A stretch of DNA of 64,000 nucleotides, taken from the NCBI GenBank assembly GCA_028066245.1, contig JALCBR010000003.1:62001-126000 (forward strand), written 5' to 3'. Shown here piece after piece: positions 5,926 to 20,467 of this stretch; positions within the stretch are counted from its first letter, which is position 1, and the number at the start of each line of letters is the position of its first letter. A model generated the notes under the pieces. It searched no databases, was not told the origin of the DNA, and saw only the letters and a list, made by a program, of their open reading frames with translations. The stretch is from Pirellulales bacterium (GTDB taxonomy: Bacteria; Planctomycetota; Planctomycetia; Pirellulales; S012-138). The position numbers were made by a program, and so were the translations under genes.

Positions 5926-7476
5926 ATGCCGACCCTTGGGTTCTTGATTGACAATCGCAAATGCATTGGGTGTCACGCTTGTACGGTGGCCTGCAAAAGC
6001 GAGCACGAAGTTCCCCTCGGCGTCGATCGTACTTGGGTGAAATACATCGAGAAGGGCGCTTTCCCCAACAATCGCCGCATGTTCACTGTGATGCGGTGTA
6101 ACCATTGCGATCACTCACCCTGTACAACGATTTGCCCCGTCACGGCTTTGTACCGCAGGGATGACGGCGTTGTTGATTTTAACAATGATCGGTGTATCGG
6201 CTGTAAAGCGTGCATGCAAGCATGCCCTTATGACGCCCTCTACATTGATCCCGCCACGAGCACCGCAGCCAAGTGTAACTTCTGCACCCATCGACTGGAC
6301 GCTGGCTTGGAGCCAAGTTGCGTTGCCGTTTGTCCTGAACAAGCTATCGTCATTGGCGATCTTGACGATCCCGGCAGCAAGATCTCACAGCTCATCGAAC
6401 GGCATCCCGTGCAAGTGCGTAAGCCGGAAAAGGGCACCAAGCCCAAGCTTTGCTATATCGAAGCGGACGAGGCTGCCCTTGTTCCTTCACGAACGGAACC
6501 GGACCGACAGTTCATTTGGAGCCGTGGTGATGCCGCGACGAACGGTCACTCGGCGAACACACTCAATGTTGATCAGTCTGGTCATGATTCTCAATTGCCG
6601 ATTATCACCGCACCGCCAGAACCCAGTCGCGTCTATGACGTAAGGCCTCGCCCGCCAGCCTGGGGTTGGGAAGTCGTGGCTTACACATGGACGAAGGCAA
6701 TCGCAGCAGGATCATTCTTGGCTGTGGGCGCGGCCCGATTGTTTGGCTCCGAAGAGATGGCCGCGGCGATGTCCGTATGGATGGGGATCGTGGCCATTGT
6801 TTTTCTGCTGGCGACCACGGCGCTCTTGATTGCTGATTTGAAACAACCCAAGCGTTTCTTATACGTGCTGCTTCGTCCTCAATGGAAATCCTGGCTGGTA
6901 CGCGGGGCTTATGCGTTGGTCAGCTATGGCGGCATCCTCACGATCTGGCTTGTTGCCCGGTTGGTGGGCGCGGATGGGCTTGCCGATGCGTTGCTGTGGC
7001 CGGGATCTGTGTTGGCTGTACTTTCGGCCGTCTACACAGCATTTCTCTTCGCCCAAGCCAAAGGTCGGGACCTGTGGCAAAATCCACTGCTGAGTCTTCA
7101 TCTGTTGGCACACGCGTTGTTGGCTGGCGGAGCCATCTGGTTGCTCTTCCTGGCTGCCACCTCGAACGAAGGGACAGTCTTGGCCAGTCGGCTGGTCATC
7201 GGCACATTGGTTTTCAGCTTGGTGACGCTCCTGGCGGAGATCATGACTGCTCATCCAACGGCTGACGCCCGCAAGGCCATGAAGATGATCATCGGGCAAG
7301 AATACGGCATTCAGTTTTGGGTGGCGGGTGTCTGTTGTGGGCATGTTTTGCCGCTCGTTTTGCTATGGCTCGGCGGTGGCTGGGCATTGACTTTGGCAGC
7401 GCTGCTCGTCTTAAGCGGAATTTTTGCGGTTGAACGCTTATGGATCTTGGCTCCGCAGAGGATTCCCTTGAGCTAG
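5926..7476 (+). CDS. Ferredoxin-NrfD fusion: electron-transfer and membrane subunit
   Basis: 516 residues that fuse two subunits usually encoded separately. Residues 1-145 are a DmsB/PsrB/NrfC-type ferredoxin with sixteen cysteines in four groups (13/16/19/23, 58/61/66/70, 90/93/96/100, 117/120/132/136), enough for four [4Fe-4S] clusters. After a polar linker of about 90 residues, residues about 240-510 hold roughly eight membrane helices of the NrfD/PsrC type, including the hallmark DLKQPKRFLYVLLRPQWKSW. There is no Tat or Sec signal, so the clusters should face the cytoplasm. The likely role is to pass electrons between the quinone pool and the molybdenum subunit encoded just downstream, whose frame overlaps its end. 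Confidence 0.92.
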   Translation: MPTLGFLIDNRKCIGCHACTVACKSEHEVPLGVDRTWVKYIEKGAFPNNRRMFTVMRCNHCDHSPCTTICPVTALYRRDDGVVDFNNDRCIGCKACMQACPYDALYIDPATSTAAKCNFCTHRLDAGLEPSCVAVCPEQAIVIGDLDDPGSKISQLIERHPVQVRKPEKGTKPKLCYIEADEAALVPSRTEPDRQFIWSRGDAATNGHSANTLNVDQSGHDSQLPIITAPPEPSRVYDVRPRPPAWGWEVVAYTWTKAIAAGSFLAVGAARLFGSEEMAAAMSVWMGIVAIVFLLATTALLIADLKQPKRFLYVLLRPQWKSWLVRGAYALVSYGGILTIWLVARLVGADGLADALLWPGSVLAVLSAVYTAFLFAQAKGRDLWQNPLLSLHLLAHALLAGGAIWLLFLAATSNEGTVLASRLVIGTLVFSLVTLLAEIMTAHPTADARKAMKMIIGQEYGIQFWVAGVCCGHVLPLVLLWLGGGWALTLAALLVLSGIFAVERLWILAPQRIPLS

Positions 7477-10415
7477 CTGCAAATCATACGTCGAACGACC
7501 GAAACCAGCCTGCGCGCGAGACCGACTTCTCGTGTGCAGGACAATTTGTGCAGGACAAATCCGTGTCAAAGAATATCGGCTTGATCGAACGTTGGGCGAC
7601 GAACTTGGGGATTATCCCCAGCGCGCCCCCCAGGAAAGAAGCCTGCAACACCGCAGAGTTGGTTAGCGCGCCGCCACCGGATCAGTGGGAAGACTGGAGC
7701 GAAGTCGAAACGACAGGCTGGCCTGGCACCAAGACCGTGCGCCATTATGACCTGATCCCCACCACTTGCTTCAATTGCGAATCCGCCTGTGGCTTGATTG
7801 CCTATGTGGATAAAGAGACGCACAAGATCCGCAAGTTTGAAGGCAATCCCGTGCATCCCGCCAGCCGGGGACGTCTCTGCGCCAAAGGTCCCGCCACAAT
7901 CAATCAAATCAATGATCCGGACCGAATTCTGCATCCGCTCAAACGTGTGGGAAAACGGGGCGAGGGAAAGTGGGAGCAAATCAGTTGGGCGGACGCCCTG
8001 GAGATGGTCGCTGGGCGAATTCGTACGGCACTGGAAGAAGAGCGCCGCAATGAGATCGTCTATCACGTTGGACGTCCCGGCGCAGAAGGCTACGTGGACC
8101 GAGTACTAAAAGCTTGGGGCATTGACGGGCACAACAGCCACACCAACATCTGCTCGTCCGGCGCCAGGCTTGGCTATGCCCTTTGGCACGGCTATGACCG
8201 CCCCAGCCCTGACCATGCCAACGCAGAATTCATTTTGTTGATCTCCGCCCACCTGGAATCCGGGCACTACTTCAATCCGCACGCCCAGCGAATCATCGAA
8301 GGGAAACTCTCAGGCGCAAAGTTGGCCGTCATTGATCCCAGGCTCTCTAACACGGCGTCCATGGCCGATTACTGGATGCCAACTCGTCCGGGGTCCGAAG
8401 CCGCGTTGTTGTTGGCAATCGCGCGGGTGATTCTTGTCGAAGGACTCTACGACAACGAGTTTCTCCAACGGTGGACAAATTGGGAGGCGTTTTTGCGGGC
8501 GAAACACCCCACTCGGCCGGTCGAGTTCGCGCAGTTCATCGAGGCATTGATTGGAGACTATGCGGAGTTCACTCCGGAGTTCGCCTTTGATGAATGCGGG
8601 ATTCCTGCCGAGACCGTGGTGGAAGTCGCTCGACGGATTGGCCGCGCGGGCCATCGCTTTGCTGCGCACAACTGGCGCGGCCCCTCCAGCGCGCATTTGG
8701 GAGGCTGGCAAGTCGCTCGCTGCCTGCATTTCTTGAGCGTGCTCGTCGGAGCGGTCGGAACCGAAGGTGGCACAAACCCCAACTCATGGACAAAGTACAA
8801 ACCCAAGCTGTTTGACAATCCGCCACATCCGGATGTGTGGAACGAGTTGCACTTCCCGCTGGAATATCCACTCACGCATTACGAGTTGAGCTTCCTCTTG
8901 CCGCATTTCCTCAAAGAAGGCCGCGGTAAGCTAGACGTTTATTTCACGCGCGTCTTCAACCCAGTTTGGACATATCCAGACGGGTTCAGTTGGATGGAGA
9001 TGCTCTGCGACGAAGAAAAGGTTGGGCTGCACGTTACGCTCACGCCCACTTGGAATGAGACGGCCTATTTCGCGGATCTTGTCTTGCCGATGGGGCACTC
9101 CGCCGAGCGGCACGACATCAACAGCTATGCCACGCACGACGGCATGTGGATCGGGTTTCGGCAACCGGTGCTGCGCGTGGCCAAAGAACGAGCAGGCGAG
9201 AAGCTTGAGTTCACGCACGAAGCAAATCCCGGCCAAGTCTGGGAGGAGGATGAATTCTGGAACGAGCTGTCCTGGCAGATCGATTCCACCGGCAAGCTCG
9301 GCATCCGCAAGCACTTTGAAAGCCCCTACCGGCCCGGAAAAAAGATCACCATTGACGAATATTACCGCCACATCTTTGAGAATGTGCCCGGCCTTCCGGA
9401 GGCGGCAGAAAAAGAAGCAATGACGCCGCTGGCCTACATGCGGAAGTATGGAGCTTTTCAAATCTCGTCCGGCAATTTCAAGCGACATGAGCGACCCATC
9501 GAAAACGATGCCGCCGAGATCAAGGTCGATGAGAATACTCGTGTCGCTTCGCGTAACGGCACGGCCATCGGAATCGAACAAGACGGAAAACTGGTGGAGG
9601 GATTCCCCACACCCTCGCGCAAGCAAGAGATCTACTCGCAAACAATGGTTGATTGGGGTTGGCCGGAATATTCTATCCCCGGATACATCAAGAGCCACGT
9701 GGACTGGCGCGGCCTGAACTTGAAAGAGGGCGAGTTCTGCCTGTTGCCAACCTTCCGGCTGCCAACGTTGATCCACAGCCGCAGCGGTTCCGCAAAGTGG
9801 CTCAACGAGATCGCGCAGTGTAATCCCATCTGGCTGCACCCGTCGGACGGCCAACGGTTGGGTATCGCTGACGGCTCGCTCGCCCGGGTGACAACGGATA
9901 TCGGCTACTTCGTTGATCGCGTCTGGCTGACGGAATCGATTCGGCCAGGCGTTGTCGCCTGTTCCCACCACTTGGGTCGTTGGCGGAGAGAGCAAGACGC
10001 GGATGGAAACCGCTTTAGCGCCAACATCGTGCAGATTTCACAACTGGAGTCCGGCAAATGGCGCATCAGGCAGCAGCAAGGACCTAAGCCGTTTGCGAGC
10101 AATGACCCTGACTCGGCCCGCATTTGGTGGAGGGAAGGGGGAGTTCCACAAAACCTCACACATGCCGTTCACCCTGATCCCCTCAGTGGGATGCACTGTT
10201 GGCATCAACGGGCGACAGTCGAACCGGCACACGCTGATGATTGTTATGGCGATGTGTTTGTTGACACCGACAAGTCACACGAGGTCTACAAGCAATGGTT
10301 GACCAAAACCCGCGGCGGGCCGGGCCCAGGCGGACTGCGGCGACCCTTGTGGATGAATCGACCGTTGAGGCCGACGACGGAGCAGTTCTACGTGAGTCAG
10401 TCAAAACCGGAGTGA
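7440..10415 (+). CDS. Molybdopterin oxidoreductase catalytic subunit
   Basis: 991 residues of the DMSO-reductase superfamily. Near the N-terminus Cys110, Cys113, Cys117 and Cys147 form the [4Fe-4S] site. The molybdenum ligand is probably Cys238 in HTNICSSGARLG, as in formate dehydrogenase, polysulfide/thiosulfate reductase and periplasmic nitrate reductase relatives. The C-terminal molydopterin-dinucleotide-binding domain is present from about residue 760. No twin-arginine signal is visible, implying a cytoplasmic location. The ATG overlaps the previous gene by 37 bases; a GTG at 7563 preceded by AGGA would give 950 residues and may be the true start. The substrate is unknown: formate, sulfur compounds or oxyanions are all possible. 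Confidence 0.9.
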   Translation: MDLGSAEDSLELAANHTSNDRNQPARETDFSCAGQFVQDKSVSKNIGLIERWATNLGIIPSAPPRKEACNTAELVSAPPPDQWEDWSEVETTGWPGTKTVRHYDLIPTTCFNCESACGLIAYVDKETHKIRKFEGNPVHPASRGRLCAKGPATINQINDPDRILHPLKRVGKRGEGKWEQISWADALEMVAGRIRTALEEERRNEIVYHVGRPGAEGYVDRVLKAWGIDGHNSHTNICSSGARLGYALWHGYDRPSPDHANAEFILLISAHLESGHYFNPHAQRIIEGKLSGAKLAVIDPRLSNTASMADYWMPTRPGSEAALLLAIARVILVEGLYDNEFLQRWTNWEAFLRAKHPTRPVEFAQFIEALIGDYAEFTPEFAFDECGIPAETVVEVARRIGRAGHRFAAHNWRGPSSAHLGGWQVARCLHFLSVLVGAVGTEGGTNPNSWTKYKPKLFDNPPHPDVWNELHFPLEYPLTHYELSFLLPHFLKEGRGKLDVYFTRVFNPVWTYPDGFSWMEMLCDEEKVGLHVTLTPTWNETAYFADLVLPMGHSAERHDINSYATHDGMWIGFRQPVLRVAKERAGEKLEFTHEANPGQVWEEDEFWNELSWQIDSTGKLGIRKHFESPYRPGKKITIDEYYRHIFENVPGLPEAAEKEAMTPLAYMRKYGAFQISSGNFKRHERPIENDAAEIKVDENTRVASRNGTAIGIEQDGKLVEGFPTPSRKQEIYSQTMVDWGWPEYSIPGYIKSHVDWRGLNLKEGEFCLLPTFRLPTLIHSRSGSAKWLNEIAQCNPIWLHPSDGQRLGIADGSLARVTTDIGYFVDRVWLTESIRPGVVACSHHLGRWRREQDADGNRFSANIVQISQLESGKWRIRQQQGPKPFASNDPDSARIWWREGGVPQNLTHAVHPDPLSGMHCWHQRATVEPAHADDCYGDVFVDTDKSHEVYKQWLTKTRGGPGPGGLRRPLWMNRPLRPTTEQFYVSQSKPE

Positions 10416-11840: not shown

Positions 11841-12551
11841 ATGATTGACAAGCGAGTCGACACAATTGCCGAAGCGGTGGCTGGCATTGCCGATGGCGCC
11901 ACAGTGATGATCGGCGGGTTTGGCGAAGCCGGCAGCCCCATCGAGTTGATCCATGCGCTGATCGATCTGGGACCGAAAGACCTCACCGTCATCAACAACA
12001 ACACCGGCAGCGGGCATGTCGGGCTGGCGGCGTTGATCGCCGCTGGCCAGGTCGCCAAGATGATCTGTTCTTATCCGCGTTCACTCAACTCAAAGGTCTT
12101 TCCGGAACTCTATCGCGCTGGAAAGATCGAGTTGGAACTGGTTCCTCAAGGCACACTAGCGGAGCGAATCCGCGCTGGCGGGGCTGGCATTCCCGCGTTC
12201 TACACGCGAACATCCATCAACACGCCGCTAGCGGATGGCAAGAAAGTCCGCACGTTCGCCGGCAAAGAGCATGTCCTCGAATTCGGACTCACCGCAGATT
12301 TTGCGTTGGTCAAATGCCAGACCGCGGATCGATACGGCAACCTGCTGTTTAACAAGACGGCACGGAACTATAGCCCCATCATGTGCACGGCTGCCGAAGT
12401 CACGGTGGTGCAAGCGCGGAACATCGTCGAGGTGGGGCAGATTGATCCGGAATGTGTTGTCACACCCGGCATTTTCGTCAATCGATTGTTCAACGTGCCT
12501 GACCCGGTGGTCGAGTCCGAATTGGTCAAAGCGGGAACACAGTATCCATGA
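11841..12551 (+). CDS. pcaI: 3-oxoadipate CoA-transferase subunit A
   Basis: 236 residues matching the alpha subunit of 3-oxoacid CoA-transferases. It shows the CoA-site glycine loop GGFGEAGSP near residues 28-36 and conserved NNTGSG, VPQGTLAERIRAGG and NYSPIM segments typical of PcaI. With PcaJ it transfers CoA from succinyl-CoA to 3-oxoadipate in the lower beta-ketoadipate pathway; acetoacetate is the main alternative substrate. I took the ATG at 11841 (MIDKRVDT) because homology starts there. The stop overlaps the pcaJ start by four bases (ATGA), indicating coupled translation. Confidence 0.85.
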   Translation: MIDKRVDTIAEAVAGIADGATVMIGGFGEAGSPIELIHALIDLGPKDLTVINNNTGSGHVGLAALIAAGQVAKMICSYPRSLNSKVFPELYRAGKIELELVPQGTLAERIRAGGAGIPAFYTRTSINTPLADGKKVRTFAGKEHVLEFGLTADFALVKCQTADRYGNLLFNKTARNYSPIMCTAAEVTVVQARNIVEVGQIDPECVVTPGIFVNRLFNVPDPVVESELVKAGTQYP

Positions 12552-13216
12552 GCAAGCCTGGGGACAATCCGCGGGGTTGGTCGCGTGAGGAAATGGCGCA
12601 GCGAACGGCGCTCGACATCCCCGATGGCGCCTATGTCAACTTGGGAATTGGCATCCCTGAGATGGTCGCTCAATTCATCCCGGCCGGGCGTGAAGTCATT
12701 TACCATACGGAAAACGGATTGCTCGGTATGGGGCCAGAGCCATCGCCGGACAACGCCGATCCGGAATTGATCAATGCGGGGAAGAAAATGGTCACCGCAG
12801 TGCCAGGCGCGGCCTTCTTCCACCATGCGGATAGTTTCGTGATGATTCGCGGCGGCCACATTGACTTGTGTGTGCTGGGCGCTTTGCAGGTTTCACAACA
12901 GGGCGATTTGGCCAATTGGTCAACGGGAGCGCCTGACGCCATCCCGGCAGTCGGCGGAGCCATGGACCTTGTCGCCGGCGTCAAGAAGATTGCCGTGATT
13001 ACTCAGCACACGACCAAGGACGGTCACCCCAAGCTTGTGCAAGCCTGCACGTATCCATTGACGGGGAAAGCGGTCGTTAACCGGATCTACACAAACCTGG
13101 CCGTGGTTGACGTTGAGGATGCCGGGTTCGTGGTTGCAGAGTTGGCGCCTGGCGTCGATTTTGATTTCGTTCGTGACCGGACGGAAGCGCCGATTAAGAT
13201 GCGGTCATCGTCGTAA
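12548..13216 (+). CDS. pcaJ: 3-oxoadipate CoA-transferase subunit B
   Basis: 222 residues. The catalytic glutamate that forms the enzyme-CoA thioester is Glu55 in HTENGLLGMGP. GAFFHHADSFVMIRGG and ANWSTGAPDAIPAVGGAMDL follow, the usual signatures of the beta subunit. It overlaps pcaI by four bases and together they make a complete heteromeric enzyme. It is followed by a class III aminotransferase and pcaF on the same strand, which argues for 3-oxoadipate or a closely related six-carbon 3-oxo acid as substrate. Confidence 0.85.
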   Translation: MSKPGDNPRGWSREEMAQRTALDIPDGAYVNLGIGIPEMVAQFIPAGREVIYHTENGLLGMGPEPSPDNADPELINAGKKMVTAVPGAAFFHHADSFVMIRGGHIDLCVLGALQVSQQGDLANWSTGAPDAIPAVGGAMDLVAGVKKIAVITQHTTKDGHPKLVQACTYPLTGKAVVNRIYTNLAVVDVEDAGFVVAELAPGVDFDFVRDRTEAPIKMRSSS

Positions 13217-13345
13217 AGCCGCCGGCCGCGCCCAGACCCAACGTTCTTTTGGTTCGCATGTGTTGGTTTCCACGTTGTCATCGTTGTCGGTCACAGCGTG
13301 GCGACGCACCCGACCGTAACACCATCCCAAAACAAACGAGCGGAG

Positions 13346-14692
13346 ATGAACGCGGACGCCAGTGACAAGAGCGAGATTCCCAGCGCCCGGTTGTATGCGC
13401 GGGCGAAGCAGGTGCTGCCCGGTGGGGTAAGCCGGAACACCGTGTTTCGCCGGCCGCACCCTGTCTATGCCGTACGTGGGAACGGATGCCGCGTGACTGA
13501 CCTGGAAGACGTGGAGCGAATCGACTTTTCCAACAACATGGCCTCGCTGATTCATGGCCACGCCCATCCGGCAATTGTCAGCGCCGTCTCGGAACAATTG
13601 CAGCGAGGTTCCGCGTTTGCCCTCGGGACTGAAGCCGAAGTCATCTTTGCCGAACAGTTGTGCGCTCGGGCTCCTGGGTTTGAGAAAATCCGCTTCGTCA
13701 ACTCCGGAACGGAAGCCGTGATGACGGCGCTGAAAGCCGCTCGGGCGTTCACGGACCGGCCCAAGATCGCCAAGGTTGAAGGCGCTTACCACGGTGCATA
13801 CGATTACGCAGAGGTCAGCCAAACAGCAAAGCCGGCAAATTGGGGTGATCCTCAAAACCCCGCCTGCGTTCCCGTCGCCAAAGGCACGCCTGCGGGCGCG
13901 CTCAAGGACGTGGTCGTTCTCCCTTTCAACAATCCAGATTGTGCCCTGGAACTGCTCAATCAGCACGCTGACGAAATCGCTTGTGTGTTGATCGACCCTT
14001 TGCCGCACCGGGTGGGCTTTATCTGGGCTGAAGATGAGTTCGTCACCGTGCTGCATGAATGGACGCGCCAACATGGGGCCTTGTTGGTCTTTGACGAGGT
14101 CATCACGTTCCGATGCAACTTTTCCGGCGCCCAACAACGGTACAGCGTGCGTCCCGATTTGACCGCCTTGGGCAAAATGATTGGGGGAGGGTTCCCCGTT
14201 GGCGCCGTCGCTGGGCGGGATGACGTGATGTGCGTACTTGACCCCACCCGCGATGATCTTCCCTATCCTCACTCAGGGACGTTTTCAGCCAATCCGATCT
14301 CAATGGTCGCTGGCAGTGTTGCCATGCAACTGTTCGATCAAGACGCGATCGATCAAGTCAACGCACTGGGTGACTCATTGCGGCAGCGAATGACTGAAGC
14401 GATCCGTTCAATCAATGCAGATGCTTGCGTCACTGGCGATGCCTCTCTGTTTCGTCTTCATCTCAAGCCACAACCGCCCACTGACTTCCGCTCGTGCTAC
14501 GCTGGGCCGGACGAGGCTCGTCAGCTTCGCGTACTGGTCGATCACTTGTTCGACAACGGCGTAACTGTGATCAACACATGCTCAGGCGCTCTTTCCACGC
14601 CAATGACCGAACGTGACATCGACCACCTGGTTGATGTCGTTAAGAGCGGGCTCGCACGAGTGAAGTCGCTGGCCAACGAGTCAACGATCTGA
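13346..14692 (+). CDS. Class III PLP-dependent aminotransferase, GSA-aminomutase-like
   Basis: 448 residues of the class III (ornithine/GABA/glutamate-1-semialdehyde) aminotransferase fold. Visible landmarks are FVNSGTEAVMTALKAAR (PLP phosphate region), the Asp250 in FDEVITFR that contacts the PLP ring nitrogen, and the PLP-binding Lys277 in LGKMIGGG. The opening LYARAKQVLPGGVSRNTV is typical of the glutamate-1-semialdehyde-aminomutase branch, which also holds beta-amino-acid and omega-aminotransferases. Its position between pcaIJ and pcaF suggests a catabolic aminotransferase feeding a 3-oxo acid rather than haem synthesis. A GTG at 13298 could extend it by 16 residues, but the ATG at 13346 fits better. 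Confidence 0.85.
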   Translation: MNADASDKSEIPSARLYARAKQVLPGGVSRNTVFRRPHPVYAVRGNGCRVTDLEDVERIDFSNNMASLIHGHAHPAIVSAVSEQLQRGSAFALGTEAEVIFAEQLCARAPGFEKIRFVNSGTEAVMTALKAARAFTDRPKIAKVEGAYHGAYDYAEVSQTAKPANWGDPQNPACVPVAKGTPAGALKDVVVLPFNNPDCALELLNQHADEIACVLIDPLPHRVGFIWAEDEFVTVLHEWTRQHGALLVFDEVITFRCNFSGAQQRYSVRPDLTALGKMIGGGFPVGAVAGRDDVMCVLDPTRDDLPYPHSGTFSANPISMVAGSVAMQLFDQDAIDQVNALGDSLRQRMTEAIRSINADACVTGDASLFRLHLKPQPPTDFRSCYAGPDEARQLRVLVDHLFDNGVTVINTCSGALSTPMTERDIDHLVDVVKSGLARVKSLANESTI

Positions 14693-14718
14693 AAACTGAC
14701 GGGCGATCACTGGGAAAC

Positions 14719-15927
14719 ATGATGCGAGATGTCTATATCTGCGACGGGACGCGAACGCCGATTGGCCGCTATGGTGGCGGGCTCTCCTCGATTCGTACAG
14801 ATGACCTGGCCGCCATCCCCATTCGAGCGCTGATCGAACGGAATGACTCAATCGATTGGACGCAATCAGATGACGTGATCCTTGGCTGCGCCAACCAAGC
14901 TGGCGAAGACAACCGCAACGTCGCCCGGATGGCGCTGTTGCTGGCCGGACTCCCGGAGCAGGTTCCCGGCGTTACCGTCAACAGGCTGTGTGCGTCGGGC
15001 TTGGACGCAATCGCGACTGCCGCGCGAACCATCGCCACGGGCGAGGCCAACCTGGTGATTGCCGGCGGTGTCGAGAGCATGTCACGGGCTCCCTGGGTGA
15101 TGGGAAAGCCAAAGGACGCCTTCTCGCGCGCTCCTGAGGTTTTCGACACGACGCTTGGCTGGCGGTTTGTGAACCCCAAGTTGCAGCAAGAATACGGCGT
15201 GGACTCCATGGCGGAAACAGCCGAAAACCTCGCCGACGAGCGGAAAATCTCGCGGGAAGATCAGGACCGTTTCGCCCTGTGGAGTCAAACCAAAGCCGCG
15301 GACGCGCAGCAAGCGGGCCACCTGTCAGGCGAGATCACCCCGGTGGCCGTTCCGCAACGTAAGGGAGACCCCATCACGTTTGACACCGATGAACATCCCC
15401 GTCTCAGCTCATTGGAACAACTGGCGAAATTGAGGACGCCGTTCCGAGATCCTGGCACGGTCACGGCTGGAAACGCTTCGGGGATTAACGATGGCGCCGC
15501 CGCGCTCCTGTTAGCATCCCAACAAGCGGTCGAGCAATTCTCTTTGCAGCCCCAAGCTCGCTATTTAGGTGCCGCGGTCGCTGGAGTGCCGCCGCGGATC
15601 ATGGGGATTGGCCCAGTCCCAGCAACGCAAAAACTCCTAGCTCGACTTGGCCTGCAATTATCCGAGTTCGACATTATCGAACTCAATGAAGCGTTTGCCG
15701 TTCAATCGTTGGCTTGCACTCGCGAGCTTGGGCTGGCGGACGATGACCCGCGGGTCAATCCGTGGGGGGGGGCGATTGCGTTGGGACACCCCTTGGGGAT
15801 GAGCGGCGCCCGGTTGGCGTTGACCGCTTTGCGGCAACTTCACACGTCAAATCACACAAGAGCGTTATGCACGATGTGTGTCGGCGTCGGCCAAGGAATG
15901 GCGCTGGCGCTGGAACGCTGCGGCTAA
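14719..15927 (+). CDS. pcaF: 3-oxoadipyl-CoA thiolase
   Basis: 402 residues of the thiolase family. The acylated Cys91 lies in VNRLCASGL, the catalytic His in [11 protein letters not shown] (about residue 357) and the second Cys in CVGVGQG (about residue 387). The N-terminus [23 protein letters not shown] and the [16 protein letters not shown] segment are characteristic of PcaF/PaaJ, which cleave 3-oxoadipyl-CoA to acetyl-CoA and succinyl-CoA. An adjacent second ATG at 14722 is also possible. It closes the plus-strand run pcaI-pcaJ-aminotransferase-pcaF and faces the KamA-like gene. Confidence 0.85.
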
Positions 15928-16068: not shown

Positions 16069-17484
16069 TCAATCTTGCGAGATCAACTTGGAATCCGGAT
16101 ACAAGCCGGCTTCATCATAGATCACGCGGTCGGCATACCCGTCAAACCAAAGGGCGTCTGGGTTACGTCCGACGATGGTCACCTTGCCGCGGTCCGGAGC
16201 ATCTTCCACGCTGCGGAGCAATTTGAAGATCACCACTCCGTTTTCCGCGCCGCGCAGCCCTGGGATGGGTTTGTTGGTTACGGAGTTGACTTCTGTCTTT
16301 CCTTTGTAGTGCGTGATGGAAAGCCGGGCGTGAGCTTCAACGCCGGAGAGTCCCTTTTGAGAATCATTGAGAATCTGCCACGTGGTTTCGATCGGCACGT
16401 TGAACGCTTTGTATCCGACGATATCTCGTCCGCAGAAGAAGTAGTGATTTTCCACGCGGTTGCGCTTCAATTCACGTTGCATGATCCGCAAGGCGTCTGG
16501 ATCATCATTGATCCCTTTGATGATGGGCGATTGATTGTCAATGTTGACCCAATCGCAGGCGGCCAAACGCTTCACACTGCGCTCCGTTTGCTCGACCCAA
16601 ACAAAGCCGCCTTCAGGGTGCTCGATGAACTGGCCGTTCTCATCCTTTTGCAGGAATTCATCGGGATGGTTGAAGTGGACCATGAAGCGCAGCGCCGTCC
16701 TGGGATACGACTCATGGAACTTGTGCATCATGTCGAAGAAGGCATCATCAAAGCGTCCGGGAAAGAACGCCAGTTCTTTGGTGCCAATCCGAATGGAATC
16801 AATGCCGGCGTCTGAAAGCGCGGCCCACCAGGAGGCCATCTTTCGGTTGGTCAGCACCATCGGATCGCCACCAGACATCAAGATTTCGCGCAGCCGTTCG
16901 CGTCCGGTTTCCGGATGCCTGCCGCCGTTGGATTCCACTTCTCGGTTGTGATTGCGGATGTACTCAACAACCTCAGGGATCTGGGCAAGCCCCTTAGGTG
17001 CGACAGTGCCGTCAGGACGAGTCACCTCTTTTCTGGCGATCAATTCTTCCCGATAGCAAAATCGACAATGCGCGGAACAGGTGGAAACCACATAGAGCAG
17101 CGCTAACTCATACTTGTGGATCATCCCTTCGATCGGGCTGTAATCCATCTGGTTGCCCGGGTCAGGCGCTCCTTGCATATCGAGCGTCTCGTTGGGATCC
17201 GCCTTGACCAGTTTCTGGATTGGTTTGCTCCGCTTGGCGAGCTGCAAGTAATGCTCGGTGATCTTGACCGGCATCCGAGCTTCCACGTCGCGCTCGGATC
17301 CTTTGACGCCTTCCAATGCAATCAGCTCATCAGCCGAATAGAGTGATTGCAGATCTGTGGGGGCTTCACCTTTGACGAGTTTCGTCAGCCCGGCCGTGAT
17401 CTGGCGGTCGTATTTCTCTGGACCCAACGAATCAACGAGTGACTGAGCTTTGGTCGTGGGAGCGTAGCTTTCTGCGATCGACAT
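16069..17484 (-). CDS. KamA-family radical SAM enzyme, lysine 2,3-aminomutase-like
   Basis: 471 residues. The radical SAM cluster motif CxxxCxxC is at Cys136, Cys140 and Cys143 (STCSAHCRFCYRE), and the GGDPM loop (LMSGGDPMVLTN) and barrel follow as in lysine 2,3-aminomutases. One point does not fit. Where known aminomutases have a glycine-rich PGGGGK loop carrying the PLP lysine and a preceding Asp, this protein has THYKGKTEV: the Lys is retained but the loop is different. It may therefore act on another amino acid or use PLP differently. I chose the ATG at 17484 (MSIAESY). The neighbouring 3-oxoadipate genes are convergent, so a functional link is inference. Confidence 0.8.
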   Translation of the reverse strand: MSIAESYAPTTKAQSLVDSLGPEKYDRQITAGLTKLVKGEAPTDLQSLYSADELIALEGVKGSERDVEARMPVKITEHYLQLAKRSKPIQKLVKADPNETLDMQGAPDPGNQMDYSPIEGMIHKYELALLYVVSTCSAHCRFCYREELIARKEVTRPDGTVAPKGLAQIPEVVEYIRNHNREVESNGGRHPETGRERLREILMSGGDPMVLTNRKMASWWAALSDAGIDSIRIGTKELAFFPGRFDDAFFDMMHKFHESYPRTALRFMVHFNHPDEFLQKDENGQFIEHPEGGFVWVEQTERSVKRLAACDWVNIDNQSPIIKGINDDPDALRIMQRELKRNRVENHYFFCGRDIVGYKAFNVPIETTWQILNDSQKGLSGVEAHARLSITHYKGKTEVNSVTNKPIPGLRGAENGVVIFKLLRSVEDAPDRGKVTIVGRNPDALWFDGYADRVIYDEAGLYPDSKLISQD

Positions 17485-18919: not shown

Positions 18920-19411
18920 CTAGCCGGGCTGTTCCCCGGAACGGATGGCGATCTTCTGCCGCTTGGCACCGGCGTGCTTTTTCAGTCGTACGGTCAACAC
19001 GCCATTTTTGAATTCCGCGTCAGCTGATTCGCTATCCACCGCGCATGGCAGCGGAATGCTGCGACGAAACGAACCGTAGCGGCTTTCCTTGCGATAGAAC
19101 TCCCCTTCTGACTCTTCGTGCGTTTCGATCTTCTCGCCGGAGAGCGTGATGGTATTCTCTGCAAGGCTCAAGTCGATCTTGTCTGGCTCCACGCCCGGTA
19201 GCTCCGCACGTACGATCACCTCCTCATCCTTCTCCGCTACATCGACGGATGGATGCATAGCACCGGAAAACGGCCTGGTCATAAAGCCCAACGGGCTGTC
19301 AACAAACTGATCGAACACCCGATCAAACTCCTGGCGCATGTCCGACCAAGGGGAAATGGAATGGCTCTTGCCGCCATCATCTTGCTTATTGCTCCAGCGA
19401 ATCAGGCTCAT
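18920..19411 (-). CDS. Small heat-shock protein, Hsp20/alpha-crystallin family
   Basis: 163 residues. The alpha-crystallin domain spans about residues 50-140, with SVDVAEKDEEVIVRAELPGVE at its start and the FKNGVLTVRLKK segment (A-x-x-x-NGVL type) at its end. These proteins form oligomers that hold unfolded proteins for later refolding. The C-terminal tail is basic. It is the most downstream of three Hsp20 genes on the minus strand and is the most divergent, with a longer N-terminal region. Confidence 0.93.
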   Translation of the reverse strand: MSLIRWSNKQDDGGKSHSISPWSDMRQEFDRVFDQFVDSPLGFMTRPFSGAMHPSVDVAEKDEEVIVRAELPGVEPDKIDLSLAENTITLSGEKIETHEESEGEFYRKESRYGSFRRSIPLPCAVDSESADAEFKNGVLTVRLKKHAGAKRQKIAIRSGEQPG

Positions 19412-19544
19412 TGCGTTTCTCCTTTTGTAGTTCTATTCCAGCGGTTGCTGGCCGCGCTCCGCGAAGAATAGCGCCTGGGAAATTATCGCATCTTCCAGGG
19501 AGAGCCGCCATCAAATTGTGGAACTGCCCTATCCCCTAAGCTTG

Positions 19545-19937
19545 TCAGTTTACATTGACGGCAATCTTGCGCGGCTTGTGCGATTCGGCCTTGGGTAGAT
19601 TCAGGATCAACACACCATCGCGATAGTCCGCCGAAATCTTTGCCGCATCGATCTTCTCGCTTACCCGGAACGTGCGGTGAAATCCGCCAACGCCGTACTC
19701 GTTGAGCGAATATTCCGTGCCTTCAGGCTGTCGCGGAGCCGCTTTGCCGTTGATGGTCAACGTCCCTTCTTGAAAGTTGATATCGATCGCGTCTTCGGGC
19801 ACGCCTGGCATATCGGCATACAGTACGAGTTGATCTTCACGCTCGATGATATCTACGTTCGGACGAAAGACTGGACCGCTGTGTGTCGATTCCGTTGCCG
19901 TGGTGTTTTCACTTGCTTGTTTGGTGGAAGTTGTCAT
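19545..19937 (-). CDS. Small heat-shock protein, Hsp20/alpha-crystallin family
   Basis: 130 residues. The alpha-crystallin domain begins at RPNVDIIEREDQLVLYADMPGV and ends with ADYRDGVLILNLPKAE, followed by RKIAVNVN. The ATG at 19937 (MTTSTKQASEN) has a purine-rich AGAGAGAGAACC leader. The frame stays open back to 20042, overlapping the upstream gene, but that extension lacks family similarity. Middle gene of the three-gene set, presumably co-transcribed from the promoter upstream of 20467. Confidence 0.92.
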   Translation of the reverse strand: MTTSTKQASENTTATESTHSGPVFRPNVDIIEREDQLVLYADMPGVPEDAIDINFQEGTLTINGKAAPRQPEGTEYSLNEYGVGGFHRTFRVSEKIDAAKISADYRDGVLILNLPKAESHKPRKIAVNVN

Positions 19938-20038
19938 GGTTCTCTCTCTTTCTACGCGGTGTGACTCTTGTCTGCGTTGAATGATTTGTGTGTGCGTGAT
20001 GAGGATGCGAAGGTCGCGCCCTCTCATCTGCATAACGC

Positions 20039-20467
20039 TCAACCGGCGTTGACCGTGATCTTACGCGGCTTGGCTGCTTCCGCCTTGGGAAGGCGAATCT
20101 CCAAGACGCCGTTCTCCAGTCGTGCTTCAATCTTGGCGGTGTCAACATCGACTGGTAGCCGCAATCGGCGAACGAAAGAACCCGTCCCACGCTCTTGCCG
20201 GTGGTAGGATTCGCCTTGTTGCTTGATGTCGGGGCGATGCCCCTTGATCGTCAGTTCACCGCCGACAATCTCTAGTTCCAAATCATCCTGCGAAAGTCCC
20301 GGCAGCTCCGCTTCAATGAACAGCGCGTCTCCCGTTTCCCAGACGTTAAGCGCCGGAAAGGAAGCCCCAAACGCGCCGCTGGAAACGCGTGACACATCTC
20401 GCCAAACTTGGTCCACTTCATCCCGCAGCTTGCGAAATGCATCTGTGCCAATACGAGTCCCAAACAT
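20039..20467 (-). CDS. Small heat-shock protein, Hsp20/alpha-crystallin family
   Basis: 142 residues. The alpha-crystallin domain runs from about residue 35 (FPALNVWETGDALFIEAELPGL) to ARLENGVLEIRLPKAEA near residue 130, with the C-terminal RKITVNAG tail shared with the next gene. The N-terminal arm (MFGTRIGTDAFRKLRDEVDQVW) is an amphipathic helix typical of the oligomerising region. A GGAGGAG ribosome site precedes the ATG. It is the promoter-proximal gene of the Hsp20 trio. Confidence 0.93.
   Translation of the reverse strand: MFGTRIGTDAFRKLRDEVDQVWRDVSRVSSGAFGASFPALNVWETGDALFIEAELPGLSQDDLELEIVGGELTIKGHRPDIKQQGESYHRQERGTGSFVRRLRLPVDVDTAKIEARLENGVLEIRLPKAEAAKPRKITVNAG

Follow-up and report, generated by a model that had tools for sequence, protein, structure and literature searches.

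Introduction

The closest described relatives of the protein considered here are the radical SAM enzymes of the KamA superfamily, foremost lysine 2,3-aminomutase (KamA/AblA; structure 2a5h, model TIGR03820). This enzyme harbours a CxxxCxxC motif followed by an arginine after the third cysteine, a PLP-binding lysine at the end of a glycine-rich PGGGGK loop, and two aspartates, D293 and D330, which we take to contact the amine of the substrate. Residues of 2a5h were numbered by counting along the alignment, which places the cysteines at C125, C129 and C132 and the PLP lysine at K337. EpmB and BlsG are likewise PLP users, and the known glutamate 2,3-aminomutase carries a basic residue for the distal carboxylate at the place of D293.

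Bacterial lysine degradation via 2-aminoadipate leads from lysine to L-piperidine-6-carboxylate (P6C), from which P6C dehydrogenase (P6CDH) forms L-2-aminoadipate. The known routes of this kind proceed via 2-oxoadipate to either glutaryl-CoA or 2-hydroxyglutarate. 3-Oxoadipate is the natural substrate of the PcaIJ/PcaF-type enzyme pair of the β-ketoadipate pathway. In an excerpt of one published account, almost all bacterial lysine pathways counted end at glutaryl-CoA (PMC5653290).

In this report we analyse a KamA-type radical SAM protein of 471 amino acids, termed AAM, which is encoded from an ATG start on the minus strand at positions 16069–17484 of a 64,000-nucleotide stretch of DNA from a Pirellulales bacterium (the whole stretch is called the window). 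Judged from its sequence and gene neighbourhood, AAM is probably an L-2-aminoadipate 2,3-aminomutase. Its fold and chemistry would be known ones, while its substrate and pathway are predicted to be new.

Family Assignment and Predicted Fold

A scan of genome contigs matched 114 stretches, 109 of which encode an AAM relative, and the best 80 of these 109 were kept. They share 62–71% identity with AAM over nearly the full length and, according to their titles, stem from Alpha- and Gammaproteobacteria, Acidimicrobiia, Planctomycetota and Chloroflexi. The family alignment comprises 79 rows, i.e., the query and 78 of the 80 loci, since L039 and L042 were dropped due to a stop within the match range. 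Conservation in these rows reaches 98% or more at 156 of the 471 positions.

Six KamA-type NCBIfam models match AAM, every one far under its cut-off: TIGR00238 (KamA superfamily; 91.2 bits, cut-off 199.2), TIGR04468 (arginine 2,3-aminomutase; 90.5 bits, cut-off 600), TIGR04368 (glutamate 2,3-aminomutase; 88.9 bits, cut-off 650), the AblA-like-2 model (88 bits, cut-off 396.25), TIGR03820 (83.9 bits, cut-off 525.4) and TIGR03821 (EpmB; 79.5 bits, cut-off 369.3). A Pfam scan yielded no family at E ≤ 0.001, and the sole PDB sequence match at E ≤ 0.001 is lysine 2,3-aminomutase 2a5h (E 2e-15). An AlphaFold2 model, computed from the query and 38 relatives, reaches a mean pLDDT of 82.7 and a pTM of 0.84, with values below 50 at residues 354–357 adjoining R353. 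It superimposes on 2a5h with a Z score of 28.1 (2.6 Å over 306 residues, 23% identity), compared to a Z score of 13.3 for the runner-up structure. Since all models score below cut-off, yet 2a5h is the only PDB match and stands far apart from the next structure, AAM has, in terms of its predicted structure, a KamA-type fold but belongs to none of the named families.

The cysteine motif CSAHCRFC (residues 136–143; positions 17056–17079, minus strand) corresponds to the [4Fe-4S]/SAM site, and its three cysteines occur in all 79 rows. Together with the match to 2a5h, this agrees with the preliminary description of the protein, which had judged the motif and the barrel to be normal. The predicted model combines the lysine 2,3-aminomutase fold with CxxxCxxC, the arginine after the third cysteine is shared, and the PLP-binding lysine is present.

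EpmB, another member of the superfamily, is encoded in the genome of the window by a gene separate from AAM (G000:C151; 415.3 bits against the cut-off of 369.3).

Active-Site Residues

The loop THYKGKTEV (residues 391–399; positions 16288–16314, minus strand; ITHYKGKTEV at residues 390–399) occupies the place of the PGGGGK segment, as had been noticed earlier, and the PLP lysine is retained as K396. The assignment of K396 to K337 of 2a5h comes from MAFFT with a raised gap cost; at the default gap cost the loop fell opposite a gap, and the profile-profile alignment stops at residue 372, the loop being placed by MAFFT alone. A family-wide alignment around the PLP lysine, which the preliminary description had proposed, reveals an invariant H-Y-x-G-K-x-E signature: H392, Y393, G395, K396 and E398 are found in 79/79 rows and T397 in 78/79, while position 394 varies (K in 64 rows, Y in 10, R in 3 and others in 2).

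The loop forms of KamA proteins are diverse. Lysine 2,3-aminomutase rows (assigned by the match to 2a5h, as for L002, by PGGGGK or by annotation) read VxDAPGGGGK, a planctomycete KamA clade VxDGLHGAGK, and EpmB-type rows, for example, EIPGQSSK. A BlsG-annotated Kitasatospora protein shows VLTTKIGK, and the proteins of Rhizobium leguminosarum and Paenibacillus show IMSHYTGK and SMSHTSGK, compared to SITHYKGK in the query. EpmB-type rows are defined as those grouping with the own-genome EpmB copy L111, which passes TIGR03821; this copy ends before the loop in that alignment and was left out of the loop comparison. The terminal residue of every KamA loop compared is a lysine, and therefore the loss of PGGGGK alone is no argument against PLP binding. 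Among these sequences, the glycine-rich loop is one of several KamA solutions, and PGGGGK is a hallmark of the rows for lysine 2,3-aminomutase rather than of KamA proteins in general. A THYKGK loop was not found in any characterised lysine 2,3-aminomutase among the sequences compared; an uncharacterised R. leguminosarum protein annotated as “lysine 2,3-aminomutase” has SHYTGK.

The residues that would contact the substrate differ as well. The preliminary description had noted the absence of one aspartate for the substrate amine in AAM, and in fact both are gone: D293 is replaced by R353 (positions 16426–16428, minus strand) in the profile-profile and MAFFT alignments alike, and D330 lies opposite I, S or T, depending on gap placement. 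R353 is conserved in at least 98% of the 79 rows and in 39/39 rows of a second alignment, and might contact a distal carboxylate. In addition, R116 of lysine 2,3-aminomutase lies opposite Leu or Met. AAM thus lacks the pair of side-chain aspartates as well as the PGGGGK loop of lysine 2,3-aminomutase.

A tree of these proteins was used for one split (support 100/99), and with reservation, since its long branches (the R. leguminosarum protein, the Rhodococcus/Mycetohabitans pair and EpmB) may join falsely whatever their support. One side comprises lysine 2,3-aminomutase, the EpmB-type proteins, BlsG and the GLHGAGK clade, and has Asp at the place of D293; the other comprises the AAM family and proteins from Rhizobium, Paenibacillus, Rhodococcus and Mycetohabitans, the rows of which have Arg. 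Accordingly, EpmB resembles AAM in that EpmB-type rows also lack PGGGGK, but it retains the D293-type aspartate and falls on the opposite side of the split.

The plasmid-encoded KamA-like proteins of Rhizobium (L178), Rhodococcus (L177), Mycetohabitans (L182) and Paenibacillus (L179) on the AAM side share 25.1–28.6% identity with the query and have loops of the form [M/I]-[S/T]-[H/A]-x-x-G-K. The Rhodococcus gene is flanked by a biosynthetic-type cluster (ATP-grasp, AMP-binding, carrier, monooxygenase and saccharopine-dehydrogenase-type genes), and the Rhizobium gene adjoins two genes of the biotin carboxylase family; neither a class III aminotransferase nor a CoA-transferase is annotated in the 6-kb Rhodococcus and 5-kb Rhizobium flanks. 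Because such remote KamA proteins, uncharacterised and set among other genes, carry the arginine too, R353 is not specific for 2-aminoadipate.

As a separate observation, the Rhodococcus (L177, 5701–7017) and Rhizobium (L178, 4953–6044) proteins, both annotated as “lysine 2,3-aminomutase”, and the Mycetohabitans relative (L182) have arginine at the place of the amine-binding aspartate and lack the glycine-rich loop. For these reasons the two names may be wrong and the substrates acidic, possibly also for the Mycetohabitans relative. Furthermore, the planctomycete proteins with the VxDGLHGAGK loop (L003, L005–L008, L011 and L013) form a separate KamA-like clade with variable C-terminal extensions, which keeps both aspartates in the absence of PGGGGK.

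Genes Adjacent to AAM

Four genes on the plus strand of the window (11841–15927) converge on AAM, and locus L087, titled Planctomycetota, is arranged alike. The first two encode the subunits of a 3-oxoacid CoA-transferase. Subunit A (PcaI/ScoA-like, 11841–12551) matches TIGR02429 with 332.6 bits (cut-off 128.5) and is closest to succinyl-CoA:3-ketoacid transferases (3cdk); the model search was run from position 11844, and the start at 11841 was taken from relatives of 236 amino acids. Subunit B (PcaJ/ScoB-like, 12548–13216) matches TIGR02428 with 301 bits (cut-off 243.55). The third gene (13346–14692) encodes a HemL-like class III aminotransferase (hemL 331.8, cut-off 527.3), for which all 25 families among the matches listed score below cut-off, and which we propose as a 3-aminoadipate:2-oxoglutarate aminotransferase. 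Its top PDB matches are 6k8h and ForI; its PDB relatives include the β-transaminase 2yku and the β-phenylalanine aminotransferase 4ao9, and glutamate-1-semialdehyde aminomutases score equal or higher. The fourth gene (14719–15927) codes for a PcaF-type 3-oxoadipyl-CoA thiolase (TIGR02430 pcaF, 682.7 bits, cut-off 597), with the “Thiolase” 8gqh (569 bits) and the β-ketoadipyl-CoA thiolase 6pca (560 bits) as top PDB matches. As judged from sequence, the aminotransferase and CoA-transferase matches alone do not fix the chain length of the substrate.

The same gene types recur in the best 80 of the 109 relatives (1.02 Mb), where they were counted by tblastn at fixed thresholds. The aminotransferase was found in 55/80 loci, CoA-transferase subunit A in 46, subunit B in 44, the thiolase in 21 and the ferredoxin FdxA in 17. 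At least one of aminotransferase or CoA-transferase subunit is present in 62 loci, and the aminotransferase together with both subunits in 39. P6CDH occurs in nine loci, five of which also contain a gene resembling lysine 6-dehydrogenase (LysDH-like). A 322-kb control, made up of short and mostly planctomycete pieces (further planctomycete stretches plus the remainder of the window) and a third of the size of the 80 loci, contained no aminotransferase, CoA-transferase A or B, thiolase or FdxA. Near AAM in the window, no FdxA was flagged by ORF clustering of the loci. The same clustering, a method that undercounts, assigned a LysR-type regulator (GcvA-like, 283.2 bits, cut-off 288) to 34 loci and a possible second regulator (a weak SapR match, 52 of 500 bits) to 12.

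Neither an aminotransferase nor a CoA-transferase was found in 18 of these best 80 loci. Nine of them are acidimicrobial and have another conserved neighbourhood; L034, L035, L039 and L055 have 6–7 kb of downstream sequence and still no partner, and in L041, L042, L072, L074 and L076 the contig ends at most 1.8 kb past AAM. In the first thirteen of these loci the pathway may be encoded elsewhere, or the enzyme may be used otherwise. The acidimicrobial copies (L096–L098, L100, L102, L104 and L106–L108) lie beside phosphomannomutase-like and FtsH genes. As a further observation, the pathway genes are overlapped by long shadow ORFs on the opposite strand (clusters c6 and c10 in the 80 loci), which are conserved enough to mask real genes in greedy ORF picking.

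Distribution

Among 392 Planctomycetota genomes an AAM copy at E ≤ 1e-60 was found in 23, and across 56 other genomes from the same family or order as that of the window the top match reaches 35% identity (E 5e-21). A conjugative Mesorhizobium plasmid carries a copy with 66.4% identity, annotated as “hypothetical protein”; after it come fdxA and the genes for a class III aminotransferase and a CoA-transferase β subunit. This patchy spread would fit horizontal transfer, though in GC content the cluster (0.578) hardly departs from the window (0.562).

Probable Link to Lysine and 2-Aminoadipate

Among the best 80 of the 109 relatives, a P6CDH gene lies within 3.4 kb of AAM in nine loci (L033, L037, L038, L054, L059, L064, L067, L069 and L089), whose titles name Alpha- and Gammaproteobacteria, Acidimicrobiales and Planctomycetota. 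The last group is represented by L069, in which P6CDH is a fragment at the end of a contig titled Blastopirellula; this title may be wrong, since the loop region is identical to that of Zongyanglinia L054. L095 has two weak aldehyde dehydrogenases and L052 a fragment, which were kept outside this count. The P6CDH proteins of L033 and L064 score 806.7 and 776 bits against NF050084 (cut-off 730). In L059 and L064, the LysDH-like gene, P6CDH, AAM and the aminotransferase form one run on the same strand. The top PDB match of the LysDH-like gene is 3abi (PH1688), presumably an L-lysine 6-dehydrogenase. Among four AAM regions examined in planctomycete genomes, P6CDH lies within 5 kb of AAM in G148 and G429, and not in G257 and G224.

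Of 30 P6CDH loci fetched independently of AAM, 11 hold the LysDH-like gene as well, and hence the pair constitutes a lysine-to-2-aminoadipate module of its own; as these 30 loci were fetched as P6CDH genes, their P6CDH matches provide no measure of chance. At the genome level, P6CDH (E ≤ 1e-180, a threshold at which not all matches exceed the curated cut-off) is present in 22 of the 23 AAM genomes, compared to 139 of the 369 Planctomycetota genomes without AAM (Fisher 1.9e-8, shared ancestry ignored), the single AAM genome without P6CDH being G394. The genome of the window harbours a P6CDH (G000:C46) with 776.6 bits against the NF050084 cut-off of 730, which is unlinked to the window. In the same genome, a search run without a positive control gave no LysDH-like match, and the best hit to L-lysine 6-transaminase (TIGR03251) reaches 167.6 bits, below the cut-off of 520.8.

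A role of AAM as a replacement of HglS, which belongs to the 2-oxoadipate route, was considered and rejected, as HglS is if anything commoner in AAM genomes: in the 392 genomes, the HglS family (PF07063, E ≤ 1e-20) occurs in 5 of 23 genomes with AAM and in 22 of 369 without, a weak excess (Fisher 0.015).

Proposed Route and Alternative Substrates

A 2,3-amino shift is the single step that makes 2-aminoadipate a precursor of 3-oxoadipate. In AAM, the [4Fe-4S] cluster would cleave SAM to produce a 5'-deoxyadenosyl radical, and the radical would then, by the chemistry of lysine 2,3-aminomutase, shift the PLP-bound α-amino group of the substrate 2-aminoadipate onto C3. K396 on the short THYKGK hairpin would hold PLP in place of the glycine loop, and R353 would pair with the distal carboxylate, at the place of the Asp that serves the amine in lysine 2,3-aminomutase. 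Next, the HemL-like enzyme would transaminate 3-aminoadipate to 3-oxoadipate, which the CoA-transferase would activate with succinyl-CoA, and finally the thiolase would cleave 3-oxoadipyl-CoA to acetyl-CoA and succinyl-CoA, thus restoring the CoA donor. Because the thiolase returns the succinyl-CoA spent by the CoA-transferase, lysine would be converted to acetyl-CoA and succinate with zero decarboxylation and no loss of carbon.

On balance, we lean towards a complete, horizontally spread and CO2-conserving lysine route, found mostly in marine bacteria according to their titles. It would run from lysine via P6C, L-2-aminoadipate, 3-aminoadipate, 3-oxoadipate and 3-oxoadipyl-CoA to succinyl-CoA and acetyl-CoA, join the end-reactions of the β-ketoadipate pathway and bypass glutaryl-CoA; its direction, order and individual reactions are those that we infer from the linked genes. 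The known bacterial routes via 2-aminoadipate share the steps from lysine to P6C and 2-aminoadipate but go on via 2-oxoadipate, whereas the route proposed here would use 3-aminoadipate and 3-oxoadipate.

The assignment of 2-aminoadipate is suggested by the recurrent aminotransferase, CoA-transferase and thiolase genes near AAM, the linkage to P6CDH and LysDH-like genes, the co-occurrence in genomes including that of the window, the PcaF-equivalog thiolase and the replacement of both aspartates, one of them by Arg. Counting against it are the 18/80 partnerless loci, a P6CDH link that is physical in just 9/80 loci and absent from the window, the P6C source not found in the own genome, the Arg common to distant relatives, G394, and the slight excess of HglS in AAM genomes.

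An unlikely alternative is that AAM acts as a glutamate 2,3-aminomutase, forming 3-aminoglutarate and, after transamination, 3-oxoglutarate, which would then undergo CoA activation and cleavage. An acidic substrate would be common to this enzyme (TIGR04368) and AAM, from which it is set apart by model score; the acidic side chain of glutamate would suit R353 likewise, and the CoA-transferase and aminotransferase are blind to chain length. However, P6CDH and LysDH-like genes adjoin AAM in some loci, the thiolase exceeds the cut-off of the C6 3-oxoadipyl-CoA model, and AAM itself falls far short of the glutamate model. It is improbable, too, that AAM is a 2,3-aminomutase for another α-amino acid (e.g., an aromatic or branched one) with 2-aminoadipate genes nearby by chance. 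Aromatic genes do lie near the cluster in some alphaproteobacterial loci, namely a gentisate dioxygenase, a maleylacetoacetate isomerase and an HpaB-type oxygenase (identified from a single example per gene), but these three gene clusters are restricted to loci titled Alphaproteobacteria, whereas P6CDH accompanies AAM in all four groups named above.

That AAM is a lysine 2,3-aminomutase after all, with β-lysine being transaminated, activated and cleaved to 4-aminobutyryl-CoA and acetyl-CoA, seems very unlikely: the closest solved structure is that of lysine 2,3-aminomutase and downstream enzymes of these types would suffice, yet both amine-holding aspartates are gone, the TIGR03820 score is far below cut-off, and the adjoining P6CDH has no role in a β-lysine route. 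Finally, a PLP-independent radical SAM enzyme with different chemistry, to which the loss of the glycine-rich loop and the Leu or Met at the R116 place might point, is most improbable, given that the PLP lysine is present in 79/79 rows, as is the Gly just before it, and that EpmB-type (IPGQSSK), BlsG-annotated (TTKIGK) and GLHGAGK rows do without PGGGGK as well. The preliminary description had left the choice between PLP independence and another substrate; the latter is supported, as both side-chain aspartates are gone and the neighbouring genes suggest 2-aminoadipate.

The open-licence literature (5.39 million papers, subscription papers lying outside this set) yielded no lysine route of this kind in which 3-aminoadipate is a metabolite, no KamA protein acting on aminoadipate, and no lysine degradation from aminoadipate to 3-oxoadipyl-CoA. 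In this literature, 3- or β-aminoadipate is named only in a meteorite study and in a reference title, and together with an aminomutase in none of the matches listed. The same papers gave no hit for BlsG with aminomutase and one unrelated survey for a PLP-independent radical SAM aminomutase.

If the 2-aminoadipate assignment is true, an acidic six-carbon amino acid would be added to the substrates of radical SAM/PLP aminomutases, and a function would be given to a family whose one annotated copy among those compared, on the Mesorhizobium plasmid, is a “hypothetical protein”. Lysine would reach succinyl-CoA and acetyl-CoA by skipping glutaryl-CoA, with no CO2 lost, and the family would show which features of the KamA loop are required for holding PLP.

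Other Features of the Window

Two further regions of the window were noted. On the minus strand, three tandem ORFs of 142–165 amino acids (18920–20467) cluster together and, by reading of their sequence, have the look of HSP20-type small heat-shock proteins. On the plus strand (5926–10415), a 4Fe-4S/NrfD protein is followed by a molybdopterin-type oxidoreductase, possibly forming an energy-conserving membrane complex.
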